This document shows, piece after piece, positions 27,304-62,610 of a DNA stretch of 64,000 nt. The stretch comes from Plumapathes pennacea (taxonomy: Eukaryota > Cnidaria > Anthozoa > Antipatharia > Myriopathidae): positions 12,467,578-12,531,577 of the forward strand of contig OZ038470.1 of assembly GCA_964036295.1 (NCBI GenBank), given 5' to 3'. Within the stretch, counting starts at the first letter, position 1. Every line of letters starts with the position of its first letter. Under the pieces are notes generated by a model. The model did no database searches and had not been told where the DNA came from. It saw nothing but the letters and a program-made list of their open reading frames with translations. The translations under genes and the position numbers were made by a program.

Positions 27304-30300
27304 TCATGCCTGGTAGAACACCTCGTACTCGTCACATCTGAAGTTGTACCACCCAGTGAAGATATTCCTGGCCTGGATGCTGCCGTAGCTATAACTGAAT
27401 GGCGGACGGTACGTGTGGCCTAAATTGCTGGAGGACTTGGTATTTACGTTGCACTGGTTTGCAAGGTACAGATCGCGGCCGCCACCAAAGGTCGGTCCGT
27501 AGTCGTTGTTGCTGTAGATGGCGTTTCCTTGGTTTCCGTAGATTTCACTCTTAAACGGTTGGTTTAGATGGTTGTTGAGTGAGAACAGGAAGGCTTTGAC
27601 GCTCTGTGCGTAGCCGGTGTCTGGAACAAAACATTTTTATGATTTTTAAAGTTTTTAACGGTGTGATAAATTTTAACTGTTTACATTATAAAGTTCATAA
27701 AAATGTTTGAAGCAAAAACCTTTTGATATATCGCACGCCAATATTTCAAGATATTTTGCCAAGTAAAAAATTTAAAACATATATGGCATATATTTAGGGG
27801 AAGGGGAGTGATTCCTTAAACACAGGAAACGGCGCATAAAATAGTTTGAGACCTATCATTTGCTTAGTTTACTGACTTGTCCAGTTTTGATCGGTGTATC
27901 CTCCAAAAACGTAAATTCCAACCCGAACCAGCGTTACAGTGGGGCCTTTGTGGTTGCACTGACGGTGGAATGAGCTGGACTTGAAGTTGTTGTCACTGGC
28001 TTTAAAGCATCTCTTCCACTCCTTCCCCTTTATTTTCACTGGCTGGAGGTACTGAGTGAGTTGTTTTGAATGAATGAGATAATCCTGAAGGTTTAATTCT
28101 GCAGGAAAAGAGTACCAGACAAACACATATGTTAAAGCCCGTCTAAACGAGTCCAACATCGTCCAACATTGTTGGATACATGAAACACTCCCATTTAGCC
28201 ACTATAATTATTTGATTGTATCATAATCAACCTCAATGGTCAGATTACTGCGCTGATTATCATGAAGCTGGGAATATGAATGACTGACGTGAAAGAGAAC
28301 GAGTAGAGGTGCCAGGATAAGTTATCGATACCTTGATAGAAAACTTCGTACTCGTCACATCTGAAGTTGTACCACCCAGCGAAGATATTCCTGGCCTGAC
28401 TGCTGCCGTAGCTATAACCAAATGGTGTACGGTAAGTGTGGCCGAGTATGCTGTGGGAATAAATGTTCAAGTGACACTGGTCTGCAAGGTACAGATCTCT
28501 GGTGCCACCAAAGGTCGGTCCGAGGCCATTTTGGCTGTCTATGGCATATACGTAGTTACGGTAGATTTCACTCTTGAACGGTTGGTTTAGATGGTTGTTA
28601 AGTGAGAACAGGAAGGCTTTGACGCTGTGTGCATAGCGACGGGCACCTACAAAAACAAAAACAAGGCAAAACAATTACAATATTCCAGTTAAAGTTGAAA
28701 CGAAGTTAAGGCAGGTTTCGCGGCAGGAGTACAGCAGGCGCAAACACAATCACAAGAGAATAGAATAAAATCCATTCTCATGCGCTTGCCTCACCGTGCT
28801 AGCCAGCCTCTTTACTATTGACGTGAAGTTACAGCAACTTTTGGAATGATAAACTACTTCCGTCTCCAAAATGTGTTAGAACGGATTGGCGTCATGGCAT
28901 AGCATATGAACCTTTATAATTCATAGGCGCAAAATTAAAATCAGGTCGGAAAACAAGCACCAAATTAATAGCTCGTGGCCTCTCATCTGCTTGGGGTACT
29001 CACTTGAGTTAAACCAGTCTCGGTCGGTGTATCCTCCAAAAACGTAAATTCCAACCCGAACCAGCGTTACAGTGGGGCCTTTGTGGTTGCACTGACGGTG
29101 GAATGAGCTGGACTTGAAGTTGTTGTCACTGGCTTTAAAGCATCTCTTCCACTCCTTCCCCTTTATTTTCACTGGCTGGAGGTACTGAGCGAGTTGTTTT
29201 GAATGAATGAGATAATCCTGAAGGTTTAATTCTGCAGGAAAAGAGTACCAAACAAACATGTGTTAAGGCCCGTCTAAGCGAGTCAACATCGTCCAACATT
29301 GCTTGATACATGAAACTGACTCACATTAATATTCGGCCAATATATAATTATTTAATTGTATCCTAGTCAACGTCAATGGTCAGATTACTGCGCTGATTAT
29401 CATGAAGCTGGGAATATGATTGACGGACGTGAAAGAGAACGAGTGGAGTTGCCAGGATAAGTTATCGATACCTTGATAGAAAACTTCGTACTCATCACAT
29501 CTAAAGCGGTAAGACCCAGCGAAGATATTCCTGGCCTGACTGCTTGTGTAGTTATAACCGAATGGCGGACGGTAAGTGTAGCCGAGATTGCTGTACAAAT
29601 TGGTGTTCACGTGACACTGGTCTGCAACGTACAGATCTCCGTTGGCAAGGCCAAATATAGGTCCGTGGCCATTGTAGCTGTATATGGCATTTGCGTAGTT
29701 ACGGTAGATTTCACTCTTAAACGGTTGGTTTAGATGGTTGTTAAGTGAAAATAGGAAGGCTTTGTTGCTGTGTGCGTAGCCACGGACACCTACAAAAACA
29801 TAAACAAAAAAAAATACGATGCCAGTTAAAGTTGAAACGAATTAAGGCAGGTTTCTCACGAGTACAGCAAGTGCAAACACAATCACAAGAGAATAGAATA
29901 AAATCCATTCTCATGCGCTTGCCTCACCGTGCTAGCCAGCCTCTTTACTGTTGACGTGAAGTTGCAGTAACTTTTGGAATGATAAACTACTTGCGTCTCC
30001 AAAATGTGCTAGAACGGGTTAACGCCATGTTCGTAGCATATGAACCTTTTTAACTCATAAGAGCAAAATGCAAACCAGGCCGGAAATATTTATTAGACTG
30101 TTTTACTTTTTGTAGAATTGGTTTTAACAATAAAATATTTGACATTGTGGGCACTTAAACACAGTACAAGCATCAAACCAATAGCTCGTGGCCTCTCGTC
30201 TGCTTGGGTTACTCACCCACAGAGTTAAGCCAGTCTCGGTCGGTGTATCCTCCAAACGCAAATTTTCCAACTCGAACTAAGATGACAGTGGGGCCTTTGT

Positions 30301-31065
30301 GGCTACAATCAGCGTGGAATGAGATGGACTTGAAGTTGTTCTCACTGGCTCTAAAGCATCTCTTCCACTCCTTCCCCTTTGTTCCCACAGACTGAAGGTA
30401 CTGAGTGAGGGGTTTTGAATAATCGGGATGATCCTGCAGAATCTTGGAGATTTTTTCTGGAAATCAACCCGGAAAACAAGAAAAAGCATATTTTACCAAG
30501 TAATCCATTATTCTAATGCCCCCCCCCCCCCCCCCCCCCCCTCCCCCCACTGCAACGCCGACTCGGGTACAGGCCTCGAAAGCAAAATCGCAACAGCGTT
30601 TGGCTATGGTGGGATCAAAATGTTTATAGGTCCGACTTGTATAATGTACATGTGGTGTTTTATTGGCCCCGAAATAAATGCTCATCAGACACCCCACTCT
30701 ATTGCATTCCTAATCCTTAACTATCTCCCCCCTCCCCCCCCCCCCCCCCCCCTACCCCCCACCCCCCATTTCGCCTACTCAGCCTTTAGAGTTGATGGAA
30801 AACAAGTTGTTTTTGCTGTGGATTGCATGTTAGTCTGCTTCAGTGGTCAGATTCACTAGCTTGGCTGATATTACTGAAAGAACACGAAAAATTGCCAGAA
30901 TAAGCTGCCTCCTGTACAAGCGATCAAAAGTTCTCCATACTAGCTAGAGACTAGCCACAGGATCTACAGTATACATTCGATTTTTCAAGTCCCCGCTTGT
31001 CATGCGAAGTACATTCCATGATGAGTATTATTGCGGAAATTATTCAATATAATAACCAAAAAAAA

Positions 31066-31118
<53 letters not shown>

Positions 31119-31380
31119 TCATTCCCGAAAAGGTTGTCCAGTTGAAATATATATATAGGCAATTATATCTATCACGTGACCACTCAAAAAAAACGTATAA
31201 CTACAAAGAAATAACATTAAGTCAGCATGTTTATACAATTTTATGGTTGCTAGTCATTAGAATGGTAAAATCAAGAGCCTTTGGAGTGTTTCCAGTTTAA
31301 AAAACGCTAGTTTTAGGTGATCACGTGACAGTATATTTGTATATTTATATATTTAGACTGGACAACCTTTTCAAGATTGA

Positions 31381-31425
<45 letters not shown>

Positions 31426-34400
31426 CAGTATTTACCCAGTGAATGATGTAGTACAACAATCTCTGTGACAGCAGTAATTTCCTCAAGATTGTTAGAGACT
31501 TTACAGGTGTAATTTCCTGAATCTTGCATCAGCACTTTGCTTATGATGAGTTTACCATCTTTCTGTCGGCTTCGTCCTTGGGGCAACTGCAAGCCTGTCC
31601 ACTCAACTGTCGGTTTAGGTAAACCAGAGGCGTTGCATTCAATCGTTAAGTTTTTGCCAATTTCCACGTAGATGAGTTTTAGGGGTTCTTTGGTGAACTC
31701 AAGAGAAACTGCAACAGAAAAGATTTCTTCATTTGTGTTTGTACCATTACCTATTTATCCAGTCTTTTAGAGTCGAAGACTGCCTTGTGGACTATTTGGT
31801 TTAAACCTTTTAACAGAGTTAAAATAACTCTCCAACAAAAGTCGGCATGACAAGAGGCAACCTGGAGCTAAAAGAATTCCATATGTGGGGTTGCTTTAAC
31901 TCCAAAAATTTAACTCCACTATGGGGAGTTATTTTAACTCCTATAAAGGAGTCAAAGCAACTCCTTGAAAATGGCAGTGCTTCCAAGGTTGCCATTGACT
32001 GGCCACTGCATCCGGATTATTAAAGTGTTCGTATTAATTTACCTTTAACTATTTACGATAACTTTCAATCCCTGTGAATGTACAAAGAAGTGCGCATGGG
32101 CCCTGGATAGCGCTCAGGAAAGTCGCAAAACAATTGTTGGAGGAAGTGTCGTGTGCAACGGCAATTGAAAATTGTTGCAAATGTTGCAAATTATGTACTT
32201 TGCGCAAACTTTGCGTACAACAAAAAGACTAGTTGCTGAGGCATCCTTTTACACTGTTCAATTCTTTAGCAACCGCCGTTGCGAAACAGGTTGCTGAGAA
32301 AATCGTATGGTGTAACAGGGCCTTAGTTTATGGTTTGAGTTACAGTACTTTTACAAAGCGCCACCTTTTACCAATTAACTAACTAACTATCAACAGACAC
32401 CATCGATATATAAAGAATGACCAACAGAACAAGATTTGTACTTACTTGCACTTGTCCTGAACAGAACTTCCTTTGACCATTCTCCAAGCTTCTCGGCCCT
32501 GACCTGAACACTGTAACGAGTGTATGGCTCAAGGTTGCTTATCTCGATGAGATTTCCTGGCTTTAGATCCACGATGAACGGCTCAGTTGAACTCATGCTC
32601 TGGAGATGGGTGAGCCTGACGACGTAGGATGCCCACAGACTGCTGTCAACCCGAAGTACGGCCTTCCTTACTTCAATTTCTTCAACTGTTAATGTGACTG
32701 GTTATATTACAGAGAAATAACAAGAATAATTAATGATGAGCAATGGTAACTTTCCCTCGACCTCGCATGCCATAATAACTTCGTAACATTTCTTGCCACA
32801 AATATTGAGATCTATGGAATACAAAACAGCATAATTATTCTCAGAGACCCCGTAAAACCGGACAGTTTACATGGTCCCAATGGCTTTCATTCTAATGGCT
32901 TTCCTCGACTCAAATCTCGCAAATACATGCACGTCAGCTTGTGTCTACCGGCTCAAACTGAACCAAGACGCCTGGCATGATTTAGGGAACAGAAACTACC
33001 CATATTACGAATGAATAATTTTTTTTTTGAGTTAGGAAAATCGAGCAGACAGTTCAAATAGTCCAAAATCGAGTCTCAGGCACGATAAGTATGCTGGCTC
33101 CTTCGTCGGCAGCAATTACTGTGATGTAATCGAGTAGTGTACCCTTTTCGTGATGACTAAAGCAAGTCAAACCCTTTGAGTGGTCGCCTACGAGAGCTTT
33201 TAAAAACAAAGGGAAAAAAAAAACAGTTGGTACCGAGGTGTAATTCCAAAAAGTGGTCGCGGCCGCTTACGAAAGCTTTTATAGTATTATTGGGTTCGGA
33301 GTGTCAATTCAAACGGGATTTCACAATGGCGGTTGTAGCTTGAGCTGGTTGCTTACAATTAGCCTCCTGACTGTAGCACCAAATTTATATTCTCCAGTCC
33401 AATTATACCCGTACAACGATATGTAGTACGTGTACGTCTCTTAAGTAGCGACGCTGCAACAACTTTTTCCGGGAGGCACATTTATTGAGACCTTTATGAG
33501 GAACTTATAACAAATGATAAGGAGTTTTATAAGGCAAAGGCTGTCTGTGAAATATTTTCAATTAGATCTGGAATAGCACAGTAGGTCTAGAGTTGCTCTC
33601 TGATTTTTCTCACGTCAGAAACCTATGACTTGGAAAGAAACACTACCAAAATTAATTAAGATGCTGAGGCCGCACCTTTTCCATTTTAAATGCCTTTAAA
33701 AACATGTATTTCAAAAACAGGATTTTAGTGATCGTAATTATAGTCACCGCGCGTTTTTGCTGTTACTAGGATACACACAATTGAAACAAAATTACAGAGG
33801 CAAAAAATTAATAGAGTAAACTGGAAGCCCCAGTCTTGATGAGAAATATTATTACATTAGACTGTGGTATGACAGCTTGACGCCTGAACAGTACTCAAAA
33901 TTGTCACAGGTGACATATATGCATCGTTAAGTGCCAAGTGTGTGATGTTATTATATCGTGGGGAACGCTTCATGGTTGCTTGCAAACTTTAAGGATAATC
34001 CACAAACGTATGCACCTTATTCATAAATGGCGGACCTAAACTACATCCACTTAGAAGATTTTAAAACTTTTAAGATAAACGTTTCGCCACCGCATCAAAG
34101 TACTCAAAATCTATCAAAGGCCATATCTTAAATAGTAGCTTCGTGCAATTTTAACGGTGTATACTGAATTTAAGCAAATTTATCCGTGTGTAAGTGCAGC
34201 AAATACATAAAAGCGAGGCTTGTGAGGCAAGACTGTCTTTCTTCGTACAAGTCTCTATAAACTGAAATAGCTGTAACTCTGCAGATTTTAAGCTACAACA
34301 TTTAAATTTTTCAAGGTTTCTAATGTTGGTATTTGTTGTGGACTCACTCGGCGAAGCGCCTCGTGAGTCCACAACATTTTGACCATGTGATGACGTAAAT

Positions 34401-35037
34401 TGTGGTAAATAAGAGTCCACACCACGGCAAACCAGTGGAAATTTATTAATTTTACAATGATGCAGCAATGCTGTAACCCAGAGAACACGCCTTTATGAAT
34501 ACGGTGTATGAAGCAACGTTCTTCCCACATCAATTCGAAGAAAAAAACAACAATAACCAAACGTTTAACCGAACTGCTTGTCGGCATATCTATATTTTTA
34601 AAATAAAATTGTGTGGCAGTCTTTAACAGAAAGGTTGAGCAAGACTTCGTGCTAAATACTTATAGCAATGAAACCCAGACCTCTTCAAAGCCATCGTAGG
34701 GCAGCAGTAGAAAAAGTAGACAATTAGGAACTGAAATTGGCGCTAGCTATGTTAGATAGTACACGTTTTAAAATGTTTAACACAAATACTTACTGAGTTT
34801 TTCTTGGCAGTGTTTGCCCCCAAATTCTTTTGGGCAGGTACACTTGTACTGCTCGTTGTCATCAGTTGGGCTGCATGTCCCTCCATTTTCGCACGGCTCT
34901 TGAAGCGCAGTGCAAACGTCCTTTGGGTCATAACAGGCGACCCTTATGCCGACGATGGTGCGTTTGTGGTCAGAGGCTTTGATGACTGGCACCACAATAA
35001 AAGCGATGCACAAAACTGAAGCATTAAGCAACTTCAT
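27304..35037 (-). CDS. Secreted multidomain protein: EGF - FN3 - Ig - 3x TLDc (9 exons)
   Basis: Exons: 34794-35037, 32446-32697, 31436-31708, 30217-30456, 29472-29789, 29004-29231, 28332-28646, 27877-28098, 27304-27620; 2409 nt, 802 aa, all internal introns phase 1. Residues 1-22 are a signal peptide (MKLLNASVLCIAFIVVPVIK). Residues 47-77 are an EGF module with six Cys (PCENGGTCSP, CTCPKEFGGKHC). Residues 82-165 are FN3-like (LIEISNLEPYTRYSVQVRAE). Residues 166-256 are an Ig domain (NLTIECNASG, DSGNYTCKVS). Three TLDc domains follow, each from two exons: KGPTVxLVRVG and FGGYTD in the first half; KAFLFSLNNH, GPxFG and CDEYEVFYQ in the second. Each TLDc has about four Cys, fitting an extracellular site. 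Most known TLDc proteins (OXR1, NCOA7) are intracellular. The first-half donor of domain 3 (ACAA|GTCAGT) is weak. The start is set by conservation with the paralogue at 50645. Function unknown; a matrix or recognition role is only inference. Confidence 0.88.
28240..30060 (-). repeat. Tandem duplication of a two-exon TLDc cassette, about 1.1 kb unit
   Basis: Exons 29472-29789 and 28332-28646 are near-identical, as are 29004-29231 and 27877-28098, with spacing of 1140 and 1133 bp. Intron sequence is duplicated too: 28680-28915 matches 29815-30055, and 28240-28330 matches 29380-29470. The unit has phase-1 introns at both ends, so it could be added without breaking frame. The third copy's last exon (27304-27620) is more diverged. 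Confidence 0.9.
30520..30760. repeat. Two poly-C tracts in TLDc gene intron 3
   Basis: Runs of C at about 30520-30541 and 30728-30752 (with interrupting T), separated by about 190 bp of unique sequence. Pro/Gly-rich frames across them are artefacts. Confidence 0.85.
31058..31114. repeat. Poly-A plus (AT)n microsatellite
   Basis: A run of A (31058-31083) followed by AT units up to the left end of the element at 31115. A matching (AT)n run occurs on the other side at 31385-31422. Confidence 0.9.
31115..31384. mobile_element. 270-bp MITE with Tc1/mariner-like ends, between TA repeats
   Basis: Left end ACAGTCATTCCCGAAAAGG; the right end read inverted is ACAGTCAATCTTGAAAAGG, followed on both sides by TTGTCCAGT. 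It sits exactly between two (TA)n tracts, as expected for an element that targets TA dinucleotides. No coding capacity. Superfamily call is inference from ends and target. Confidence 0.7.
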
Positions 35038-35175
35038 GTCTTCGAATGACACTTGTCATTCAACAAGTTCGAAATGGAACAGAGAATGCCATCTGTTCGA
35101 AGAAATAGCATCATGGTTAGTTGCCATGGTAACATCACGCTATCTGACAATGTGTACGTGCATATATATAATACA
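35038..35175 (-). promoter_or_regulatory. Promoter/5' UTR of EGF-FN3-Ig-TLDc gene, shared with paralogue
   Basis: A TATA-like TATATATAT (minus strand, 35170-35162) lies about 125 nt upstream of the ATG. Between TATA and ATG the sequence matches the same interval upstream of the pentraxin gene (50512-50644), including ACACATTGTCAGAT, GATGTTACCATG and TTTCTTCGAACAGATGG. A stop codon (TGA) in the leader blocks any upstream in-frame start here. Confidence 0.65.
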
Positions 35176-35237
35176 ATTATAATACATGCGTTCATTTGTA
35201 TTCTGAACTTTACCTTTACCGGAGTTAGGGCCTGGAA

Positions 35238-35345
35238 CATCAATTTTAACGGTGTATACTGAATTTAAGCAAATTTATCCGTTTTATCAGTTGCCATCGG
35301 GCAACATCACGCAATCTGACAATGTGTACGTGTATTTATATAATA
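35238..35345 (-). repeat. Second, partial copy of the promoter block plus a repeated leader
   Basis: 35285-35345 repeats the CAACATCACGC, TCTGACAATGTGTACGTG and TATA-like (TTATATAATACAATT) part of the promoter at about 35125-35190. 35238-35282 matches intronic sequence at 34148-34190 (TTTTAACGGTGTATACTGAA). Evidence of local duplication at the 5' end of this gene. Confidence 0.7.
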
Positions 35346-36111
35346 CAATTAAAATACAATGCATGCGTGCATTTATATTAGAGTGATTTCATATAACCCG
35401 ATGATGAAACAATGCACGGTTGAAACCTAACTTTAACGATTAGTATAAATTTAGTATCGCAAGCTTTACTAAGAAACAAGAGACCTCTCTTGTAAGAAAT
35501 TAGCTCGATCATAGCCTTTAGGAATGAGCGTCCACGAGGAGCGTGCTCAAAATTCTGAAACACGCTAAATAACCATGGAACAAAACGTAGTATAATTTAC
35601 GCGCTTCCCCTGGTTATGTCCATATAATATCTTGTTTGTTTTTTTTTTGTTTTTTGTTTTTTGTTTTTTTGTTGTTGTTGTTGTTGTTGTTTTTTGTTTT
35701 GTTTTGTTTTGTTTTGTTGTTTGTTTTGTTTTGTTTTTTGTTTTTTTATTTTTAAGATCTTTTAGTTTTCCTTTGGTTAGACAGGATGGCTTTTAAGAGA
35801 GCGGTAATGACTGGAATATTGTCAAGCGGCCGACCAACGGGCCCGGCCCATACGATGAACCGCTGACCATGCATCTCTCTGACGTCACGGCAGTGCTCGT
35901 TTGCCACCAAACATGGCGCAGGTGTGTTTGACAGAGGACTCTTCTTGTGTCCATTAATTCGACACTTATCTGTCTTGGCGAAGATTCGATGAGCAGCAAA
36001 CTAGTATGGTCACAAATCAGAAGCCTCAGAGGCAATTCACGAGGGTACGCCAGGGTTTCATCGAAGTGCCAAGTTCAATAAGGCCCGTGAGACCTACATG
36101 GAAATCTTGGA
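35346..36111. other. Divergent intergenic region upstream of CAMTA
   Basis: Contains a T/G-rich simple-sequence block (TTTTG/TTG repeats, about 35631-35755) and then about 350 bp of unique, CpG-containing sequence that probably holds the CAMTA promoter and 5' UTR. No TATA box is evident near the CAMTA start. Confidence 0.45.
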
Positions 36112-40845: not shown

Positions 40846-40905
<60 letters not shown>

Positions 40906-43900
40906 TCTTCTTAAAATTAGCTGCTTTCTCACTCATGCACAGTTGACAGGGATGTTGCTTAGTACCAGCTGCTGGTGAATTTTACTGGCTGAGAAATTTG
41001 GCCAGCAATTGTGCAACAAAGGGCATCAAGCAGAGCTCCTCTGCTCATAGCTGGTTGAGTTCAATTATAAGCCGGCACGCTTAACTATAGTCGATGAAAC
41101 TGGGATATTCTGACCAAACATGTGGGCAGAGTGATCCAGAAACTCTCCATAAGTCATGATGTAATTTTTGTAATTAGTAGATAAACATTCAATGGAGAGA
41201 TTAACTTCCCATTCAGTTTTTTTATAGGAAACTAAAAGGTATTGTTAGCTGCCTGAAGTATGAAATTTGTCTGTTTGTTTGTTTGTTTGTTTGTTTGTTG
41301 TGTCCTACAAGCTGGCATATTTTCCACAGATTTGTGAAGGCTTTGTATAAATGAACGAATAAATTTATGGATACACACTTTTTTTCAGGTCACCGAAGCT
41401 ACCGCCTCGACTGATTCGTCCTCTTCACCTGAAAATAACGACAAAATAAAAGGAAAGGGACCATTAAACTGGAAAGTTTTTACCATATCCATCACACCAC
41501 CCACGAAGCAGGAATTACCAATGAACGCACAGGATCCTGGGACATGCAGCAACGGAACTAATGGAATGTTAGACGGCAGTGGAACGGCAAACGTCTTTGT
41601 TAATCTTTTTAATTTGCCAGGCGATTTGCCCAGCTTGTTCCCTTGCACCTCAAATAATTCTCTGCAAACACAAGCTTCTTTTCCACTTATTGTTGGTTCA
41701 ACGTCACAGCAAACTCAACCAATTACTTCGTCCGGTTTGTACATGTGTAATCCGATTGTTGGTTTCCCTTCAACGTCACAGCAGACTCAACCAATCAGTT
41801 CGTCTGGTCTATTCACTTGCAGTGCTATTGGTAATTTAACGTCACAGGAAGCTCAACCAGTCAGTTCGTCTGTTTTACACACGTGTAATCCGGTTGGTAG
41901 TTACCTTTCGACGTCACCGCAAACTCAACCAATCAGTTCGTGTGGTTTATCCACGTCCAATCCAATTAGTGGTTCTTCTTCGTCGTCACAGCAAGCTCAA
42001 CCAATCAGTTCATCCGATATATACACATGCAATGCGATTGTTGGTTTTCCTTCGACGTTGCAGCAAACTCTGCCAATGGGGTCATCTTATGTGCCAACGT
42101 CAGGAAATAGCCCTTCCATAATTGGGCAGCAAGTGCGTTCTCAGCTTCCAGTCTCTTCATTTGGTTTGCAAACAGAACTTGATCGAGCCAATTCTGTTGT
42201 GGTTTTGCAGAAAATTGCAAGGTCTACTTCCACGTCTTCATCTGGTGCATCTAAACCAGTTGAGATAGCTCCAAAGCCTTTACAACAAGAGCCTTGCTTT
42301 CCACGAGACACCCAGATCAATGCGCAGCTTGGCAACCTAACTGATAGTACTTTCAATGGATTCAACTTGAATGCAGTGCCGACGGGGAATATCAGCAGCA
42401 GTCCCTCGAGCGATTATGGGAGCTACATTTCAGACCCCGGCAACAACGCTAGCGCCGAAGGCGTCCGAGAGGGGTTATTTGATGGTCCTTTCCGCGTGCC
42501 ACACCCCATCGGCCAGGAGATCGGTAGAAATGGGCAATCGCCACAACTGCAGAGGGTGTTGTCTGCGAGGAGAGGAAGCGTGGCCGAATCCTCTGGTAGT
42601 AGTGCTTCATCTTCATCTCGAAGTTCGTCTCAAGAAGCATCGGTTCAACAACTTCGATCGAAGACTAACGGCGCCTCTCTCGCTGCGAGTTCGACGGACA
42701 GCGACGCGGGCATTGATTTGACAGATTTGCAAGATTTCCCGCCGTTCGAGTTGCATTTGTTGGACGCAGATCTATGTCTGAACCTCCCTGGTGATGGTTT
42801 CGCAGACACTAACAATTTTTCGGTCAAGGAAGCGTCCATGTGTGACCCGCTAGGGCAAAGCTCAAATTTCCTAGAAAACAGTGAAAATTTCACGGAAATC
42901 AGTCAGTGCTTCGCAGGAAACAATGGAAATTTCTCGGGAAATAGTTGTTCTGCACCTTGTCACGACTCGTCTGTTTTACCAATGGCTCACAATACAGTTT
43001 CTACGGCAACCGCAAAACAAAGCGACACGTGCTTAGACTCGCCCTTCGTCTTCCCTCCAGTTGTTTTGTCTCCTGTTGTTACGCCTGCGGCTTATTTTCC
43101 AGATGCCAGCAAGGCGCCATTTTCTGCGACGACAACGTCTCACGTGACAGGGCTGGTATCTAATGCGCCGTCTCCACACACCAAAGCTTCGCAAGGGATT
43201 ATGGATGTCAATATGGTAGACGTGCAGGCGACCTCCTCAGAACCTGCAATTTCTGGGAAAAACGTTTTCCTTTCGACTGTTGCACAGCTACAGCCCCAAT
43301 CCGTTTCAGCCCAAACTGTCAACTGTGTCAGCGGTAGTCATACTGACAGTTGCGGTTCTCAAGCGCAACGCTTGGTCCCTAGGCCCCCTAACCACGTAGT
43401 CCCAGTTTCCGCGCGGATCATTGAGTACTCGCCCGAGTGGTCGTACCCGGAGGGTGGGACCAAGGTCCTAGTGACGGGCGAGTGGTCTGTCATGCAAGAC
43501 AATTTCACGTGTTTGTTCGATGGCTGTAGTGTCCAGGCCACGCTCATTCACCCAGGAGTGTTGCGTTGTTTCTGCCCGCCCCACGAACCAGGCCTGGTCA
43601 CCTTGCAGGTGGCCTGCAACGGCTTCATCGTCAGCAACGCGTGCGTGTTCGAGTATCGCACGCGCGACTCGCCCACCTCGAGCGGAGCGGGTTACCACGA
43701 GTGGCTCGCGAGGGACGACACGCGTTTTAAGCTGGCCGTTTTGGACCGGCTGGAGAGACTGGAAGCGAGACTTTTCTCGGGAACTGCGAGTACTGCGGAC
43801 GTGGGGCAAATCCAACATTCTCTGGAACTCGAGGAGCGACTTGTGAAGATCTGCGCGACGCTGTTCAGTGCCGTGAAAGCGGAAGACGCGAGCACCCGCG

Positions 43901-44288: not shown

Positions 44289-44322
<34 letters not shown>

Positions 44323-47300: not shown

Positions 47301-47940
47301 ATTATGTGACAGAGTGAGATAGTAATATAAATTAGATCAGGATCGAGCGAGGGGTCAAGAGATTGTTGGAACTGTGAAGGGAAAATGATGGCAAATGTGT
47401 TCTGCTCAGCTTTTTTCTCCACTCTCAGTGAACCGACTAAATTCGTGTGTTAGAAACGAGTTGTCATCCTTCATAATTACCTTGTACTTCTGCAGCAACC
47501 CACGGCTGGGAATACAGTAAAACTTTACGCCCAGTGGCTTGTTTCTTTGGAGCACAATTATTATGCTTCGGCATCTTGTCCCTCCGGCTATCAAACTCGT
47601 TCAAAATGGCCTCCGCTCCCTGGGAACAATCCCAGAAACCTCTGCGAGAGGTAATTCGGAACCAATCCCCGGCGATGATTGCTGTTTTGACCTTTGAACT
47701 TTGTCCTTCTGTACCCAGTATGTTGTGACAAAGAAGAAGACTCAGGCGGCCCGTATCATTCAGAATCAGTTCAGAGCTCACAGAGAACACGAACACTTCC
47801 TGAAAAGTCGACAGGCAGCCGCCATAATTCAGAACCATTTCAGAATTTACCGTGAACGGCGCAGGTCGCAAAGACGACGGGAGGAGAGCAAGAACAAGCG
47901 ACAAGAAGCGCGCTTTATGAAGCAATTCTCCAACAGGTAG
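36112..47940 (+). CDS. CAMTA: CAMTA, calmodulin-binding transcription activator (complete, 12-13 coding exons)
   Basis: Nuclear calcium/calmodulin-linked transcription factor. Exons: 36112-36240, 38415-38482, 39199-39238, 39542-39640, 40010-40081, 40520-40649, 40720-40757, 41389-44243, 44415-45022, 45731-45795, 46363-46437, 47719-47940; 4401 nt, 1466 aa, phases consistent. Exons 1-6 encode the CG-1 DNA-binding domain (YRWNNNEEVLSFLISFDNHE, GSMLLYNRKK, DYRKDGYLWKKRK, TTREDHFKLKV, HRRCYWLLE). The 2.9-kb exon 8 holds a low-complexity region with a 25-residue tandem repeat (about 297-427), a TIG/IPT domain (about 865-950; YSPEWSYPEGGTKVLVTG, GVLRCFCPPHEPG) and ankyrin repeats (about 1035-1140; LTLLHLSAALGY, CTPLMWACALG). 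Four IQ motifs end the protein (IIQSAYRNYK, LIQHQYRRYKQ, IIQNQFRAHRE, IIQNHFRIYRE). The last exon may stop at 47940 or splice at 47936 to 48662-48680 (AKENP, stop). Invertebrates usually have one CAMTA gene. Confidence 0.95.
40160..40470. repeat. (ATC)n compound microsatellite, CAMTA intron 5
   Basis: About 310 bp of CAT/ATC/ACC/AGC triplet runs. It opens long frames of Asp, Met or Ile in several phases, which are composition artefacts. Confidence 0.95.
40810..40904. repeat. (TTA)n microsatellite, CAMTA intron 7
   Basis: About 30 TTA units with few interruptions. Smaller simple repeats nearby are (GTTT)n at about 41273-41298 and (GTT)n at 44289-44323, both also in CAMTA introns. Confidence 0.95.
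41701..42095 (+). repeat. In-frame ~75-bp tandem repeat inside CAMTA exon 8
   Basis: Five to six imperfect copies of a unit encoding roughly TSQQTQPISSSGL, a Cys-Asn-Pro-like patch and an hydrophobic-Gly spacer. Copies begin near 41702, 41774, 41846, 41912, 41987 and 42053. Spacings vary by multiples of three, so the reading frame is kept. Confidence 0.8.
45035..45252 (+). repeat. Dispersed 'CCCTTTCACT' repeat, full-length copy (CAMTA intron 9)
   Basis: Begins TTTAACCCTTTCACTTCTGA, contains TCTCACCAGAGATAAATGAT and ACATTTTCTTCTT, and ends inverted with GGAGTGAAAGGGTTAA. The inverted ends (AACCCTTTCACT / AGTGAAAGGGTT) define a MITE of about 218 bp. Confidence 0.8.
46508..46865. mobile_element. 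Candidate MITE with TTATTACACG ends, CAMTA intron 11
   Basis: Left end contains TTATTACACGACTT and GAGTGCAAATACGG; right end read inverted gives TTATTACACGGGAAGGAGTG. The interior has TGTAATAAACAATTTATTAC, itself palindromic. No coding capacity. Confidence 0.55.
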
Positions 47941-47949
47941 CGTTCAAAA

Positions 47950-48172
47950 GACAGATTCTCCCTACCATATGAGAAGAAAAGAGTGATCAACTTCAATTCT
48001 CTCCTTTCAGTCTCCCACCAGAGATATATCATAAAGTACGGAGAATTTGGCATTTGATACCTTGCTGAAATGGCAGCTGATTAAAACATTAATTCTCTTT
48101 TTATCACTAATACATTTCTTATTTTATGGTTGAGAGAGTTTGTATTTTGAGCTTGGGAGTGAAAGGGTTAAA
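47950..48172 (+). repeat. Dispersed 'CCCTTTCACT' repeat, second near-full copy
   Basis: Shares TCTCCCACCAGAGATATATC, TAATACATTTCTTATTTTAT and the end GGAGTGAAAGGGTTAA with the copy at 45035-45252. It lies immediately past the CAMTA exon 12 stop, in the 3' UTR or last intron. Confidence 0.75.
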
Positions 48173-48680
48173 GTGGTTTTTTCCGCTGTAAACTTGAGTA
48201 ATGCACGATCCGTGTCAGAACAAATTCATTATTTCTGTGGTTTAATTTAATTTTCTGGTTTGACTGTGTGAGGTAATTAAGCTTGAGAAACCCCAGTCAA
48301 GGAACGTACGGGAAGATTTGGTGGCTTTTGTTCGCTTTCTTTGTTCAAAATGTGCATCATATTGAAAAATAAGAGTTTGATAGAAACATTCGTCCTCTTG
48401 TTTCTCGGAGAGTTTTGTGACCTCCATTTAGTGTTGCAGTGAAACACGACTGGCATCAAGTATTAAAAGAAGTGGTGAAAACAATCACATTTATGAGTAA
48501 ATAATTTTGGTGCGAGATTTGTTTCGGTTTATCGTAATTACACTCGAGACTGTAGTTGTTAAATTTATCTGAGCAAACTTTCAATGTACAAGTTTTCTAT
48601 ACTGCATGCATGATATGCCTATGTACGGGCAATTTCTCATTAGCAATGTTTCTCTCTTCAGGGCCAAGGAGAATCCATGA

Positions 48681-50480
48681 AAATAGTTGCCCTGTAGTCA
48701 CAAATCACGATCCTAACTGGAAGCCCACAATTTCCACACAGGACTTTCAAGTCTCCTTAGTACTTACTGAAGATCAGGAACACAGTCAGAAACGCCATGT
48801 TTCATGAACTTATTTATAAGATGTAAATATTGTACACAGGATTAATAGTATTTATTGTAAGTGTCTTGTAACGTAAAGAGATTTTGCAGCCATTGGACGT
48901 GCACCAGCTTGCTTTTCGTGACGTGCATCGTTTTATGCGATATTTTTCTTCGAGATTTTGAAGAAACTCGTCGCTTGTTCACAAACTGATTTTCACAACC
49001 ATGCTCAGGTAGCAAAATAGGATTTTTACTGCCGGTCCAAATTAGTGTCACTGTCAGTGACGTAAATATCTGCTGAGCTTGTTTTATTTCCTTCTTTCTT
49101 TTTTTATTTCTACATAGTTGCACTATGCTACCAAAGAAGCGGTTCTTTACGCTGCCCGACAGGTTTTGTCACCAGGTGGCAAAATCTAAAACTCACGAAC
49201 TGCGCATGACTGTGAAAAATGGTTTCTGGCTTCTGTTACGAGGCAACTCGGGCGACAAAAAAAGTTTAAGCATACATGTCATCTTGTGGCGTTTTTCATC
49301 AGATGCATGTGGCTGTCACATTTCTCTTTGTGTAACAGGACCTTACGAGGTGAAATCCAACTCTCGAAGCTTGTCTGAAGTCGGTGCTCATAAGATTAGT
49401 ACTTGTAACTCGTTTAGCTCTCTTTATGTCACAAAACGGTGGATTTCTTATGAATCTTCATGTGTGGCAACCTTTCAGACCAATTTCCGACTTGGCGCGA
49501 AGTGTTTCATCACTAGCGAAAACTCTCGCAAATACACGGAATCTCATTCAAATTGAATTGCTATAAAACGTCATAAACTCGATTTCAAATTTTTCCAGCA
49601 CATGTCTGTTTTTGTTTTTGTTTTTGTTTTTTGTTTGTTTGTTTGTTTGGGCTTTTTTGACAGAGTTCTAGGTATGTCTTTGTTTCTTGTTGCTATCGTT
49701 TTTTCTATTTGGTCGTCGCCGTGTTGTCGTTTGTGGTCGGGCCGTTCTCGTCGGTTGGTTGCTATTCAGTTGTCGTCGGGCACTATACTTGTTATTGTCG
49801 CAGTAGTAAGTTATTTTTGTCCTGTATTTTCTTAAGTTATTTATTTTGTTGGCTACGGCTTTTCGTTGTATACTCATGGAGGTCGCCGTATCCAAGGAAT
49901 TAATTGCTCAGGCCCAGTATTTCAAACCACGATTAGGCTAAACCTGAAAATGGGAACCATTTCCTCACAACACATCTTCCCTGATATATTTTGAGCTAGA
50001 ATTAGTATAAGTAAAAATAAATAGTTTGTCTTTGATTAAAACCCTGCCGTTTGTTGGCCAAGAGGTTGCGGGAAACAATTTTACTGCTTAATCCCGAACT
50101 ATTAGTTTAATCGGACTTTGAACAAACGTACGCTGGACAGACGGTAACTGTGCTACCGACATGCACATTGCGAAATTGTCAAGCTGAGAGTTGGAAATAT
50201 GAAATAAAACAAATCACATGGAAAAGTTAGTACTGGTAATCAACAGTGATATTTTAAAGTTTATATTCGCGCTATAGAACGAAAGGCGACAACGTTTGCT
50301 GAAATTTGTAAAGTGTTTTGCCCGCGTTTCTCCACAATCAATTACGTTAACAGGGCCTTTCTTGGTCTTATATCTTGTAAATTGTGTTTACAAAATGCAA
50401 ATCCTTTGACGGTTCAATCGGTCTAACATCGGGCCCAACCCCCCGTCCTTATAAATAACGTACCTTCCCTTGAGATGGAC
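48681..50480. other. Intergenic region between CAMTA and the pentraxin gene
   Basis: About 1.8 kb. It holds the CAMTA 3' UTR and a G/T-rich simple repeat (TTTTTG units, about 49602-49650). A 143-codon frame at 49125-49556 has no recognisable domain and no plausible splice partners. I see no gene here. Confidence 0.45.
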
Positions 50481-50644
50481 CTCCAATAATTTAAATTAAC
50501 AAAGAAACAGTTATATAAATGCGCGTACACATTGTCAGATCGCATGATGTTACCATGAATGGCAACTATGATGTCATTTCTTCGAACAGATGGAATTCTC
50601 TGGTGCATTTCGAACTTGTTGGACGACAAGTGTTGTTCGAAGAC
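50481..50644 (+). promoter_or_regulatory. Promoter/5' UTR of the EGF-FN3-Ig-pentraxin gene
   Basis: TATATAAA at 50512-50519 lies 126 nt before the ATG, the same spacing as in the TLDc paralogue. A CCAAT motif is at 50483-50487. The TATA-to-ATG block is homologous to 35038-35175. The frame is open here up to 50519, but the paralogue's leader has an in-frame stop, which supports the ATG at 50645 that starts the signal peptide. Confidence 0.65.
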
Positions 50645-51136
50645 ATGAAGTTGCTTAATGCTTCAGTTTTGTGCGCCGCTTTTATTGTGTTGCCAGTCAT
50701 CAAAGCCTCTGACCACAAACGCACCATCGTCGGCATAACAGCCGTCTGTTATGACCCAAAGGACGTTTGCAAAGTGCTTCAAGAGCCGTGCGAAAATGGA
50801 GGGGCATGCAGCCCAACTGATGATGACGAGCAGTATAAGTGTACCTGCCCAAAAGACTTTGGGGGCAAACACTGCCAAGAAAAACTCAGTAAGTATTTGT
50901 GTTAACCATTTTAAAACTCGTCATTCATTGCTATGCTATAGAGATAGCTCGAAGTCTCGCTGAACCTTCAATATTTTACAAAATGCCACACATTTTCGTT
51001 TAAAAATATATTTACCGACCAGAACTTTGGTTAAACTATGATTTTTATATTACTTCAAACGACATAGAAAAATAAGTCTTAACTCGTAATTCTTTTTTTC
51101 GAAAATTATTTTGTAAGCGACAAAGGGCTTCGTGAG

Positions 51137-51203
<67 letters not shown>

Positions 51204-52647
51204 AATATGTATTAGTGACTGTTGTAACTTTTTCTTTAGATCGGTAGAAAATGTATAACTTAGAAACGACAAAGACCATGGAAATCAAGCTAGCCCACGA
51301 GCCATATGGTCCGGAAAAATAATCCTTTAATCACTATTTTTCACTCCTGCCGAAGGCGAGGAGTCCTAAAATACACTTTTGTCATGTCGAGAATCTGCTC
51401 GGCTCTGATTGGTTTACGTGTGTTCATGGTTACCATCGTTAAAGTCGTGACGTCACGAGCAATGGCGCAATGCAATGCGTTCTTTTATAGTGGTGTTTTG
51501 AATTCTTTGAATAGCTATATTTCCAGCATGACTTTACTCGGGCTTTATCGATTTCTCGAATTATCATGCTGGAATTGCAACATTATTTGGCAGGAGTACA
51601 CTGATGAGAGTCAGTCTTGTTTTACAAGGCACTCAGAAAGTCTGTTTTGACAGATGGTTTTCTCAGAACCAGTCGGTATAAACATTCTAACGTAGGAAAG
51701 GTATTTTGACTACAGTATACGTTAACAGGACCATTATTGTTTTTCATTTACTTTTTAATTTCGCAAGCGACAAAGGGATTCGTGAGAATATTACATTAGT
51801 TATCCTTTTGGATTTTATTTTTCAGATCAGTAGAAATTGTATAACTTAGAATTTTTCAACAAAGACCATGGAAATCAAGCTAGCCCGCGAGCCGCATGGT
51901 CCGGAAAATAATCCTTTAATCACTATATTTTTTACAAAGCACTCAGAAAGTCTGTTTTGACACTATAGGCCGTGAATTTTAAATTATCTTAAATTATTGA
52001 ACGAAGAACCTTGTAATGTAGCAAATATTACTTTGTAGTCAAAGACGCAAAAAGAAAAACATTGTACTCCCTCTAAGCTAATCAGGAATTCAACCAGTCG
52101 AAGAGTTTATAATCAAGATGGCAATTCGTCAATTTGATAAAAAGCAAAGTTGCATAAATTAAGTGCGTTTTGTGGGTGTGGCCGTGTCAGTCGATTTTCT
52201 TCTAGTGTTGAATCGTATAACTTACTGAATTACTTCTGAGAGAAATGTGATATTTGCACTAGGGACTCGTGAAATCGAGTAACAGTGAGTTAATATGCCA
52301 CTTGTAGTGCTGCCGAGCACTGGGTAGGCTGCATGCTAATCTTTTGAGAGGAAGGCATGCAGGTGGCTGTGGACCCGGTCATTTTAGGCCTGTTTCAAAC
52401 GTCGTACCTCTGTCGTGCGGAGCTCAATTAAAATACTGGTTCGGCAATTGCACGGTGGTGGACTCAAACGTTGAGCTGATGAAGTCGCGAAGAAACTGAA
52501 TTTATAAACTTGAAATACAATCAAATTGAAATAAACACAGGACATGTAATACACGCATAAGTTGGGATTAAACACACGGCACACGGCACACGACACACGA
52601 CACACGACACACGACACACGACACACGACACACGACACACGACACAC

Positions 52648-52682
<35 letters not shown>

Positions 52683-55600
52683 AACCACAAAACCGTCAAA
52701 CCGGTTAACACCGTGCGCGTGTATGTATTAACAATCAAGATTTTTTGTCTGGGGAAACAATATCATAAAAACTGTCCTGTTTTACGAGGTATCTCTGGGT
52801 AATTTGTCTGTATAAACTGTTTTTTGTTCCAGAGATCATGCTATATTATTTTTGTGGCAAGAAATGTTACGATGTTAGCAGAATGCATGTCTTGTCGCAG
52901 AATTCGCATAGCTCATTGTATTTTCGTTTCTCTATAACCAGTTACATTAAAGGTTGAAGACATTGAAATGAGGAAGGCCGTACTTCGGGTTGACAGCAGT
53001 CTGTGGTCATCTTACGTCTTAAGGCTCACCAAACGCCAGAGCAAGAATTCAACGGAGTTCATTGTGAATGTAAAGTCGAGAAATTTAATTGAGATAGACA
53101 ACCTTGAGCCATATACTGATTACACGGTTCAAATCAGGGCTGAGAAGCTTGGAGAATGGTCGAATGAAGTTCCATTTAAGACGCGTAAAAGTGAGTACAA
53201 AACTGGATGTGTGGAGGTGTAGAGTGAAAGCTGGGCGTCGTGTTAAATAATTACGTCCCCCAACCAAAATGGGAGTGATGTAGTAAAAGAAATGCTAGTT
53301 TTAATCAACTTTCATCTGAGCAAGGTATCAAAACTTAAGTTCTCCTTGCTGTATGATATATTTCTGGCAAGAAAACTGAATGAGAAAGTCAGCGATAATA
53401 CACTCTTGGAAGCGAAGTATTGAGCCAAATAGTCCGTGAGGCTTCGACTCTAAACGACTAGATGCAGATAATGGCACAGACACAAACGAAGAAATCTTTC
53501 CTGTTGCAGTTTCTCTTGAGTTCACCAAAGAACCCCCAGAGATCATTTATGAGGAACTTGGCAAAAATTTAACGATTGAATGCAATGCTTCTGGTTTACC
53601 TGAACCGACAGTTGTTGAGTGGACAGGCTTGCAGTTGCCCCAAGGACGAAGCCGACAGAAAGATGGCAAACTCATCATAAGCGAACTGCTGATGCAAGAT
53701 TCAGGAAATTACACCTGTAAAGTCTCCAGCAATCTTGAGGAAATTACTGCTGTTACAAAGATTGTTGTACTACGCGGTCCACAAGGTAAATATTGGTTGA
53801 TGTGTTAGCTTGTTTTTCGTGGTTGTTAGACAGAATGATGTGCAAATTGCGCAAGCAAAGTTTTGGAAAATTGAATGTGTAGCGTGGATCCTGTGACTAG
53901 TTTCTTGAAATATCGATTAAATAAAGTATGCTGACTTCTACGCCATTGAATAATTCCAATTGAGTGTGATGGAGGACACTGTACGTAGTATGAGAGTTTG
54001 AAACTTCCGTATGTGATCCTGCGCTGTAGTGTTTATGAACCCGTACTAAAGGGTGTGGTGGGAGAAGTTGTGTCCTACACTGGATCGATTGTACCCTTGT
54101 AGATTTTTAACAAACAAATATTTTTTATGACAGGCCAAAATATTTTTGTTGTTAGAAACTCAAGAAAATCCGGTAGACGGTTGGTAGAATATATCAATTC
54201 TTCAATGCTCGAACAGTCCGGCATTTATTGCCCAAACTCTGTACCGGCCTGATTTTGTACCGTGAAGAAAAAAAAAAAAAAAAAAAAGAATCGAGGACTT
54301 GGAAACATCAGTTTTTGAACTGCGTCGAAAGTCAGACTAACCACTTACAAACTAGTCAATTACTAGCGACAATATTATGTGTTTTTGTACTGTGGTGTTT
54401 GTGAAATATCAATTTATTTCGCAAGGGAAGCTAGTATTTTTTCGGGTTGTTAATGAATACATATCTTACGCAAACAAAATCGTGGAAAACTGAATGTGTA
54501 GCGTGGATTCTGTGACTAGTTTCCTGAAATATCGATTAAATAAAGTAAGCTAAAATGCAGACTTCTATAGACCACTGAGTGTGATGGAAGACCCTGCACG
54601 TATCACGAGAATTTGAGTCCCTAAGCCCTGTAGTGTTTATGAACCCGCACTAAAGGGCACGGTGGGTGAAGTTGTGTTCTCTACACTGGATTGATTTTAT
54701 CTTTGATATTTTAACAAAGAAAAAGTCGTTGTAGTAGACCAATTTATATTTGTTATGAGGAAACTCAAGATTGTCCAGTAGACGGTTGGTATAATGTAAT
54801 GATTAGTTCAATGCTTCAGTAGTCAAGCAGTCTGGTAATTGTTGTCCAAACTCAGTATACCGGTCTGACATGTATCATACAAAACTGACTAGTACTTCGA
54901 AGAACTATAGTTTATGGATTGCGTCGGCGCTGAGAAAAGCCGATTCATCAAGTGAGTTCTACAAGTTTGAATTTGCACCAATCTGATGAAAAATTTCTGC
55001 GTTAGTAGAGGGCTAAGTAGTCGAGTAAATGTCTCGTTTTGGTTTTTCATTGTAGACTTCTCTCTCCTCTTTCCCAAGAAGAGTATCACAGACTACGTAT
55101 TAATTAAGGGAATGCCTTCTCTTGCTGCCGTCACTGGATGTTTCTGGATGCGGTCCATTGATCAGGACAACAACGGTACACCCTTTAGTTACGCCATTAG
55201 TGAAGATAGAAATGATAATGAACTCCTCATTATTAACTACAAGAACTTTGACCTTGTTGTTGGCAAAGATGGGAAATCAGGGTAAGCCATCACTAACTAA
55301 ATTGAATAAGTGAAATTACAAGTAAAATTGCTAAATAATTCTTAATTTTCATGTGGTTTTAACCTTTTCACTCCCAAGCTAGCCTTCTACGCAGCCAGTA
55401 GTAGTCTCGGTTCCTCTCGCGCTCACCGCTAAACGTCTAGTGCTCAAATTAAATGAGCGGCATATTCAGTCTAATCTTTGTAATTCGGACTGACCTCTTC
55501 GATGGTTCTTGTCTCATATGCAAAAAGTCCTTAAAACGTTTAAGAATACATTAACGTATAAAATTATCTTCGCAGAACTGTCGGTATATAATGCAGATTG

Positions 55601-56542
55601 CATGTTTCTTCTATTAATTGAGAAGTCCCGAGTATTAGCAACGAACTTTTGATTTGTTCCGAATATTACCGCATCTCTGTCGTGAATACGTTGTGTGGTT
55701 TTCACGAACTGTATATAATAGCTTTTTATTAGTTCCGAATCTGCAACCGGCCGTTTATCGATTCTTACTTACAGGTCATTATACACAATATAGTGTCATA
55801 CACAACATAGTGCCTACATACGCAATCGCAGTAGATAGAAAAACGGTAGCGTAGGAGGGTACTCGTACGGGTGATCAACTTTAATTTTCTCCTTCAGTTT
55901 CTCATGGAGAACTTGGCTTTTGATACTTTGTTTAGATAAAGGCTGATTAAATATCAGTTCTCACTAGTGTATGTTATAACTCGCACATTTTCTTCTGGTA
56001 TAGTCTGCATTTTGCGCTCGGGAGTGATTGAAATTGGTCTCCCAAGAAGCCAATAAATACAAAGCGGCAAAGTATATAGTGATAAGACAAACCCGTACTG
56101 ACTTCTTTTTTCAATTGACAAATTCACTTCATTACTTTTTCTCGGCCCCAGTCCTACTTCTGTATCAGCTAATGATGGCTTGTGGCACCATATCTGCTTC
56201 ACTTGGAAGAACACCGACGGCTCATGGAAGATCTACAAAGATGGCACCCTCAGGAGAAGTGAAAACAACCTTAAAAAAGGTTACAATATCACTGGAGGTG
56301 GAATCCTTGTACTTGGACAAGATCAAGACAAACGGGGAGGGAAATTTGACGAAGATCAATCGTTTGTTGGGGAGATGAGTGGCGTCAACGTATGGAATCG
56401 CGTGCTGACCGCACAGGAGATTTTCAACTTGTCCAAATCGTGCGACACAGGGGAGGGGAACGTGTTCAAGTGGTCTGACTTCAAAAGTGGAGTCAAGGGA
56501 GCGGCACAGGTCATTCAACCGTCCGCCTGCACAACAGGTTAA
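50645..56542 (+). CDS. Secreted multidomain protein: EGF - FN3 - Ig - pentraxin (5 exons)
   Basis: Exons: 50645-50888, 52942-53190, 53510-53785, 55056-55281, 56152-56542; 1386 nt, 461 aa. The first three exons match the TLDc gene in length, phase and sequence; the EGF exon products differ at only about 10 of 81 residues. Residues 1-22 are a signal peptide (MKLLNASVLCAAFIVLPVIK), 47-77 an EGF module (PCENGGACSP, CTCPKDFGGKHC), 82-164 FN3-like, 165-256 Ig (NLTIECNASG, DSGNYTCKVS). Residues 257-461 are a pentraxin/LamG-like fold: GCFWMRSIDQDNNGTPFSYA, the family signature region WHHICFTWKN, and LVLGQDQDKRGGKFDEDQSF with FVGEMSGVNVWNRVL. Pentraxins bind ligands through calcium, and the acidic/Gln residues of LGQDQD fit that. 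The final stop (GGT TAA) could instead be a donor (G|GTTAAA), but pentraxin length favours a stop. Probable secreted pattern-recognition or adhesion protein; function inferred. Confidence 0.9.
51115..51960 (+). repeat. Local direct duplication in intron 1 of the pentraxin gene
   Basis: GCGACAAAGGGCTTCGTGAG (51117) recurs at about 51768, and AAAGACCATGGAAATCAAGC recurs at about 51271 and 51864. CACTCAGAAAGTCTGTTTTG recurs at about 51630 and 51940. The first copy carries an (AT)n expansion at 51138-51201. Confidence 0.8.
52572..52680. repeat. (ACACGAC)n / (AC)n compound repeat
   Basis: About ten 7-8 bp CACACGA units followed by about 16 AC units, in intron 1 of the pentraxin gene, 260 bp before exon 2. 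A Cys/Val frame on the other strand is an artefact. Confidence 0.95.
53850..54760 (+). repeat. Local tandem duplication in intron 3 of the pentraxin gene
   Basis: Segments near 53870-54210 and 54480-54800 share TGAATGTGTAGCGTGGAT, CTGTGACTAGTTTC, GAAATATCGATTAAATAAAG, TGTAGTGTTTATGAACCC and GTAGACGGTTGGTA in the same order, at a spacing of about 610 bp. Confidence 0.85.
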
Positions 56543-62571: not shown

Positions 62572-62610
62572 AAAAAAAACCGTCCCAGAGTTCCCGCGGT
62601 CAAACATCAA

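Follow-up and report, generated by a model that had tools for sequence, protein, structure and literature searches.

How can two neighbouring genes agree almost exon by exon through their first half and then end in unrelated domains? This question is raised by a 64,000-nucleotide stretch of the antipatharian Plumapathes pennacea (contig OZ038470.1, written C9 in the following, positions 12467578-12531577; here called the window), which belongs to a 290 Mb assembly of 24 contigs and carries two predicted secreted-protein genes of opposite strand with a CAMTA-like gene, so judged by its TIG, ankyrin and IQ parts, between them. Gene A (minus strand, 35037-27304) encodes a predicted protein of 802 residues ending in three TLDc domains, and gene B (plus strand, 50645-56542) a predicted one of 461 residues ending in a pentraxin domain. 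It is proposed that both are members of a large family of modular, predicted secreted proteins built on a common N-terminal platform, whose C-terminal heads are swapped within the phase-1 intron behind the Ig exon, and that gene A itself is a join between this platform and a TLDc end; we give this reading a probability of about 0.8. A sequence-only reading of the window had described the pair and suggested that exon shuffling exchanges the effector end. The two loci are adjacent in the 24-contig assembly, so that, short of a misjoin, the suggestion is not refuted on this ground.

One platform and two heads in the window

The platform of gene A consists of exon 1 (34794-35037; signal peptide and EGF; 244 nt, ending in phase 1), exon 2 (32446-32697; FN3; 252 nt, phase 1-1) and exon 3 (31436-31708; Ig; 273 nt, phase 1-1), all on the minus strand; its counterpart in gene B consists of exon 1 (50645-50888; 244 nt, ending in phase 1), exon 2 (52942-53190; 249 nt, phase 1-1) and exon 3 (53510-53785; 276 nt, phase 1-1) on the plus strand. 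The shared order and phases asserted by the sequence-only reading are thus borne out, with similar exon lengths and 83% identity between the two platform proteins. The likeness begins ahead of the coding sequence, where the 5' flank of gene B (50511-50644) matches positions 35171-35038 upstream of gene A at about 85% as a common upstream region. In the EGF exons the signal peptide is followed by the six cysteines of an EGF domain and one further cysteine, and neither predicted protein has a strongly hydrophobic stretch beyond the signal peptide. EGF, Ig, TLDc and pentraxin all pass the Pfam cut-offs; FN3 stays below its cut-off, and the FN3 exon modelled from the two window copies matches FN3 structures.

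The two EGF exons had been called near-identical at exactly 244 nt, and both are indeed of that length with a synonymous divergence of only 0.07. This value is not representative of the platform, since it rises to 0.36 in the FN3 exon and 0.20 in the Ig exon (EGF versus FN3, Fisher p 0.006), and the middle of intron 1 is no longer alignable between the genes. Exon 1 was probably homogenised by gene conversion, and a dating of the pair by exon-1 near-identity was dropped in view of the contrast between 0.07 and 0.36. The ratio of nonsynonymous to synonymous divergence is about 0.48 for the whole platform (p 0.002), with no signal of constraint in exon 1 alone (p 0.75), and the three TLDc units of gene A are under constraint as well (p 6e-3, 8e-5 and 8e-7); because of these two results, both genes look like working genes.

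Behind the Ig exon the two genes part, as had been described. Gene A continues through intron 3 (30457-31435) into six exons that encode three TLDc domains, each split into two halves: 30217-30456 and 29472-29789, then 29004-29231 and 28332-28646 (these four all phase 1-1), and finally 27877-28098, which is 98% identical to the first half of the second domain and has the donor GTCAGT, and 27304-27620, which includes the stop codon. All eight introns of gene A are in phase 1. The Pfam TLD profile is passed above its gathering score in three stretches (205.6 bits in total, the best covering 14-167 of 170), and each of the three copies keeps four cysteines. A PDB sequence search with the TLDc units gave no TLDc chain; with the profile, a single synthetic Kelch-like chain came up at E 7e-7 beside weak matches to Kelch chains, and these hits were set aside as a shared glycine-rich motif.

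Gene B continues into a pentraxin domain encoded by two exons (55056-55281, entered in phase 1 and left in phase 2, and 56152-56542, with the stop codon); its introns 1-3 are in phase 1, and intron 4, which lies within the domain, is in phase 2. The Pfam Pentaxin profile scores 126 bits over positions 4-191 of 194, and the nearest solved structures are neuronal pentraxins (E 8e-43 and 5e-42). In the alignment with the SAP-like pentraxin 3flp, the calcium-loop stretches NDNE and GQDQD...FDEDQ of gene B are matched by DNQ and GQEQD...FEEQE. They may correspond, residue by residue, to the calcium-binding positions of human CRP. The latter are as listed in the available text of PMC6503050.

The phase-1 junction is kept in genes A and B and in two further loci of the genome, L013 and L016 (see below); the sequence-only reading had regarded such junctions after Ig as safe for the reading frame. 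Since the exons for EGF, FN3 and Ig all close in phase 1 and the C-terminal modules open in that phase, a head swap in the intron after Ig would leave the frame intact.

The platform family in the genome

A search with exon 1 of gene B as query gave 138 matches (150 of 911 candidates scored), and the counts below are limited to the 42 nearly full-length copies, genes A and B included, that cover at least 79 of the 81 residues. Fifteen of these are 80-100% identical to gene B and 27 are 43-68% identical. Seven of the 15 close copies lie at C9:12.502-12.575 Mb, so that genes A and B, in the window, open a longer cluster on C9. The downstream DNA (10 kb) was read for 20 of the 42 copies, besides genes A and B in the window, with overlap among some of the fetched loci (L012, L010, L018 and L015; L021 and L020).

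Exchange of the effector end is supported genome-wide, as four types of head pass the Pfam cut-offs behind the close exon-1 copies: pentraxin, TLDc, fibrinogen and F5/8C. Pentraxin prevails with nine of the 15 (gene B, L009, L010, L011, L012, L015, L018, L019 and L020), the heads of L011 and L019 being assigned by coordinates, as their pentraxin and Ig matches fall close to or past the limit of the 10 kb that was fetched. The other six are gene A with TLDc, L013 with fibrinogen, L016 with F5/8C, L021 with a weak Ly6-like domain only, and the unassigned L014 and L017. L013 contains a complete frame of 464 amino acids that runs from the signal peptide through EGF, FN3 and Ig into fibrinogen (163.5 bits; fn3 below cut-off) with phase-1 joints, and L016 an open frame of signal peptide, EGF and F5/8C; exon 1 is 244 nt long in both. 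Heads may also be repeated, as Ig-pentraxin-Ig-pentraxin in L009 and L019 and as pentraxin-pentraxin in L018. A block of about 2.5 kb comprising Ig and pentraxin stands in tandem in L009 (3643-6136 and 6130-8621 in gene orientation; 99.4% identical), doubling the head.

Fibrinogen matches accompany three of the 27 distant copies. In L026 the domain was read behind Ig (172 bits, 65% identical to the fibrinogen of L013); for the copies of L025 and L028 the assignment is by proximity (15 and 18 kb). Over the genome, exon-level matches number at least 111 for TLDc, at least 135 for pentraxin and at least 158 for fibrinogen, all three being lower bounds; the tally of heads by coordinate took 85 of 97 TLDc, 73 of 150 Ig and 47 of 135 pentraxin matches, and 22 of 158 fibrinogen matches picked by contig. 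The TLDc exons are expanded in clusters at C1:4.33-4.59M, C9:5.98-6.20M, C10:14.6-15.9M, C11:1.80-1.87M and C12:0.84-0.89M.

Several candidate heads were not accepted as firm. The Ly6-like open reading frames of L020 and L021 reach 17-20 bits, under the cut-offs, and a WSC-like frame in L017 reaches 22.8 bits against a cut-off of 27.8. On the same strand as exon 1 of L014, and 10.7 kb further downstream, stands a fibrinogen exon; it was not counted, with no second domain half adjoining and a helicase-like open frame (by eye) following. Ly6/uPAR-like exons after the same signal peptide-EGF exon stand at 4800-5060 in L020 and 3523-3789 in L021 (gene orientation), and the L014 copy sits inside a cluster of split-type fibrinogen exons on the minus strand of C1:26.01-26.11M, in the same orientation.

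Gene A as a chimera

The two halves of gene A have different nearest relatives, in keeping with the suggested shuffling. On the platform side, matches to the family cover the upstream flank, exons 1-3 and 43 nt of intron 3 (30988-30946), the last at 81-82% to intron 3 of gene B and of L010/L012. Outside the window, the nearest relatives of its TLDc exons lie at C9:6.03-6.07 Mb (69-72% over the first half-domain). One of them, L033 (C9:6060600-6069600), is 73-77% identical to gene A in its TLDc protein sequence, and the homology starts at 30448 and continues for 175 nt beyond the stop codon, so that the 3' flank of gene A (27129-27303) is homologous to that of L033 (C9:6.06M). No FN3 or Ig match to the platform was found within the 9 kb read at L033; upstream of its TLDc are two CBM14 domains, two EGF-like stretches and a WSC-like piece below cut-off. 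From the two sets of matches, the switch is placed between 30946 and 30457, inside intron 3. By these sequence comparisons gene A is a chimera of a platform front and the TLDc end of another family, and the predicted gene L033 is another extracellular TLDc architecture, with CBM14 and EGF ahead of TLDc.

Beside the switch region, intron 3 of gene A carries a palindromic TA-rich insertion (31076-31423) with 92-nt arms that are 87% complementary. Intron 3 of gene B (53847-54868) contains a segment of about 400 nt twice, at a spacing of about 610 nt and with the copies 74% alike, and the first part of the duplicated segment resembles the 43 nt common with the gene A intron.

A head swap between near-identical copies and a Helitron-like end

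The exchange is seen at higher resolution in two loci on C1. L009 (C1:36.36M) and L013 (C1:14.25M) are identical at 295 of 297 upstream positions (99.3%) and at 241 of 244 positions of exon 1 (98.8%), and their introns 3 remain near-identical to about 520 nt past Ig, where they abruptly become unrelated, L009 leading into pentraxin and L013 into fibrinogen. Judged from this comparison, the pair is a recent head swap. The platform tree joins L009 with L013, L014 and L017 (support 96), many of its rows being partial.

L013, L014 (C1:26.05M) and L017 (C4:8.80M) stay alike past the point at which L009 diverges, and end together in the hairpin ACTGGC-AAG-GCCAGT followed by CTAG, beyond which their flanks are unrelated. 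Helitrons, which are rolling-circle transposons, end at their 3' side in a short hairpin followed by CTRR, begin with TC at their 5' side and insert between A and T. Exact copies of the 27-base end motif number 714 in the genome (353 + 361), against 0 for the reversed control. Nine such ends are present in the fetched loci; the other eight are 79-99% alike with L013 in the last 300 nt, versus 5-13 of 30 positions in the next 30 nt. All nine flanks begin with TT and represent eight independent sites, since L023 and one end of L024 share their flank. The same repeat family stands 5' of the platform, where 762 nt are 97.9% identical to a copy in L024, and that copy continues to a Helitron-like end. 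Because one repeat family flanks the platform on both sides, the platform in the dispersed copies appears to sit inside Helitron-family sequence. In L013 about 70 nt separate the Helitron-like end from the fibrinogen exon behind it. Eight more open reading frames of L014 and L017 past this end gave no Pfam match. At the 5' breakpoints of the dispersed copies are repeat-like sequences, one of them tRNA-like by eye.

A Helitron-type element is a likely vehicle of three dispersed platform copies. It applies to these and not to genes A and B, because neither the window nor L009, in the 10 kb read, shows such an end. The copies in L009, L013, L014 and L017 might instead stem from segmental duplication or ectopic recombination between repeats, the Helitron-like end being a mere breakpoint repeat. 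This would agree with the differing 5' ends of the copies and the repeats found there, with the abundance of the end motif and with its absence from the 10 kb of L009, which has the same platform; however, three copies that diverge at one point, directly after hairpin and CTAG and into unrelated flanks, and a single repeat family on both sides of the platform make it a less likely account.

Weighing the proposal

The two C-terminal ends could also have arisen by differential loss from an ancestor that had both TLDc and pentraxin after the platform. Longer heads are possible, given the repeats in L009, L019 and L018, and nine of the 27 distant copies (on C10 and C6) have a TLDc exon on the same strand within 40 kb downstream, which by this proximity alone would allow platform plus TLDc to be the old state. 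Yet a tblastn search of the window with both proteins (E 1e-2) found no pentraxin remnant in gene A and no TLDc remnant in gene B; the TLDc exons downstream of two distant C10 platform copies are only 53-56% identical to those of gene A, far from the values for L033, which shows no platform exon in the 9 kb read; and the ancestor would also need added fibrinogen and F5/8C heads. We consider such a loss improbable. Less probable still, and in our view hardly credible, is that EGF, FN3 and Ig form a protein by themselves, with the pentraxin or TLDc exons in separate neighbouring transcripts. An in-frame ATG at 54986, ahead of the pentraxin exon and followed by a hydrophobic stretch, could serve as a stand-alone start, read-through of the Ig donors gives short tails that end in stops, and AATAAA occurs twice in intron 3 of gene B. 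That hydrophobic stretch, however, is encoded by the T-rich tract of the acceptor of the same exon, no ATG frame from intron 3 of gene A enters the first TLDc exon, the phase-1 junction is kept in all four loci named above, and platform plus pentraxin recurs in nine of the 15 close loci.

Several observations weigh against the proposed family of exchangeable heads. All gene models were read from the DNA sequence, and the ATG at 54986 is a possible start in its own right. No Ig was detected in L018, and both FN3 and Ig went undetected in L016, L020 and L021. Within the 10 kb read, L014 and L017 show no domain above cut-off and L021 has only the sub-cut-off Ly6-like head, for which reason some exon-1 copies may be dead. 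The nine distant copies with TLDc nearby keep the loss reading alive. The platform tree, in which 12 of the 22 rows are without one or two of the three domains, leaves gene A loosely placed (supports 51-74); a closest-copy relation between A and B was dropped, as B groups with L012 (support 93) and A falls elsewhere, weakly. As regards the vehicle, a TC 5' terminus was not identified and the 5' ends of the copies differ.

Relation to known systems

The sequence-only reading knew of no described family with this split, a statement that holds only in part. No description of the platform or of a TLDc/pentraxin exchange was found by title and abstract among the listed papers of the open-licence literature, but a design of the same kind with other heads is known. 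The VIgL proteins of the snail Biomphalaria (FREP, CREP and GREP) are secreted and combine an N-terminal Ig part with a fibrinogen, C-type lectin or galectin head (PMC5433772, in the part available). The overall design described here seems closest to theirs, and the likeness, by design only, is seen in gene B (Ig and pentraxin) and in L013 and L026 (Ig and fibrinogen). The differences are the platform of signal peptide, EGF, FN3 and Ig, the set of heads (pentraxin, TLDc, fibrinogen and F5/8C), the TLDc of gene A in place of a lectin-type head, and a Helitron-linked dispersal, of which the available part of PMC5433772 makes no mention.

Two cnidarian groups share parts of this design. The CniFL (cnidarian ficolin-like) proteins, putative Ig-fibrinogen receptors with copy-number variation, were searched for by collagen, Ig and fibrinogen together (PMC5094078, in the part available) and resemble the Ig-fibrinogen members of the platform family; no collagen match was found in gene A, gene B or L013, and the available text of PMC5094078 mentions neither an EGF-FN3 platform nor pentraxin or TLDc heads. 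Cnidarian polydom and other matrix proteins with a pentraxin domain are, according to the available part of PMC12549020, multi-domain and secreted and combine EGF with pentraxin, as is predicted for pentraxin-bearing members of the A/B family. The vWFA, Sushi, HYR and CUB domains of polydom were found in neither A nor B. TLDc proteins are described as V-ATPase interactors in the available part of PMC8608904. Such binding requires a cytosolic location and conserved glycines. Gene A shares its domain with the intracellular OXR1, NCOA7, TBC1D24 and mEAK-7, from which it differs by a predicted signal peptide ahead of the TLDc copies and by the four cysteines in all three.

Capture of genes and shuffling of exons by Helitrons is known in maize and bats. 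The present case is alike in that an end of hairpin and CTRR bounds a segment of host exons in several dispersed copies; it differs in that the segment is a whole in-frame N-terminal platform with its upstream region, one copy of which stands in frame before a fibrinogen exon.

Other features of the window

Neighbouring genes include an F-box/LRR gene (7218-8648), an aldehyde dehydrogenase exon (15048-15347) and a weak ubiquitin-hydrolase-like exon below cut-off (1001-1381). A long open frame of the CAMTA-like gene contains tandem 72/138-bp repeats (41697-42077), and a 17/34/85-bp minisatellite (61953-62573) is followed, about 560 bp away, by an inverted partner array of the same 17-bp unit (63136-63373). 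Rfam gave no match in the window at gathering score, and eight long open reading frames of the window, intronic or neighbouring, had no domain above cut-off. Viral and prokaryote contigs yielded no confirmed relative, which for an animal gene is the expected outcome.

Proposed mechanism and function

According to the proposed scheme, the front end, made up of the upstream region, signal peptide and EGF and usually also of FN3 and at least one Ig, would act as a secretion and stalk platform, and recombination in the intron after Ig would swap the C-terminal head with the frame kept. Gene A would have arisen by a join within intron 3 that put a platform of the mostly-pentraxin type in front of the TLDc exons and 3' end of the other family's gene, this being the direction we infer. 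At dispersed loci the same platform would have been carried within Helitron-family sequence, and at C1:14.25M a fibrinogen exon follows it in frame; the boundary there is seen directly, and transposition would be its cause.

Within such a protein the platform may provide secretion, spacing or perhaps oligomers, and the head the ligand specificity. Pentraxin, fibrinogen and F5/8C are extracellular ligand-binding domains; TLDc is not known as a ligand-binding head. The predicted signal peptide argues against a cytosolic role of the TLDc of gene A, and the three copies behind it, with four cysteines each, suggest an extracellular use of this domain. For the family as a whole, soluble recognition or adhesion has about an even chance of being the function. 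The main alternative, that the family builds extracellular matrix or skeleton and is not concerned with immune recognition, is a real possibility: matrix proteins often contain EGF, FN3, Ig, F5/8C and pentraxin domains, although pentraxin, fibrinogen and F5/8C are also common ligand-binding heads. Pentraxin domains of cnidarian polydom proteins point to the matrix (PMC12549020, in the part available), whereas the swapping of heads is reminiscent of VIgL and similar recognition families (PMC5433772, likewise).

We tentatively extend the scheme to a Helitron family that carries the platform, from its upstream region to Ig with the phase-1 donor; selection would keep the insertions that fall in frame before binding domains, and new soluble recognition proteins with pentraxin, fibrinogen, F5/8C, TLDc and Ly6-like heads might thus keep arising. 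Exon shuffling in animal secreted proteins is usually deduced from old, blurred events. The near-identical copies L009 and L013 show a junction to the base, together with a likely vehicle. If transcripts and binding bear the proposal out, this would be an animal recognition family in which the gain of heads is datable and testable, and it would, if true, show how a mobile element can give rise to innate recognition genes.

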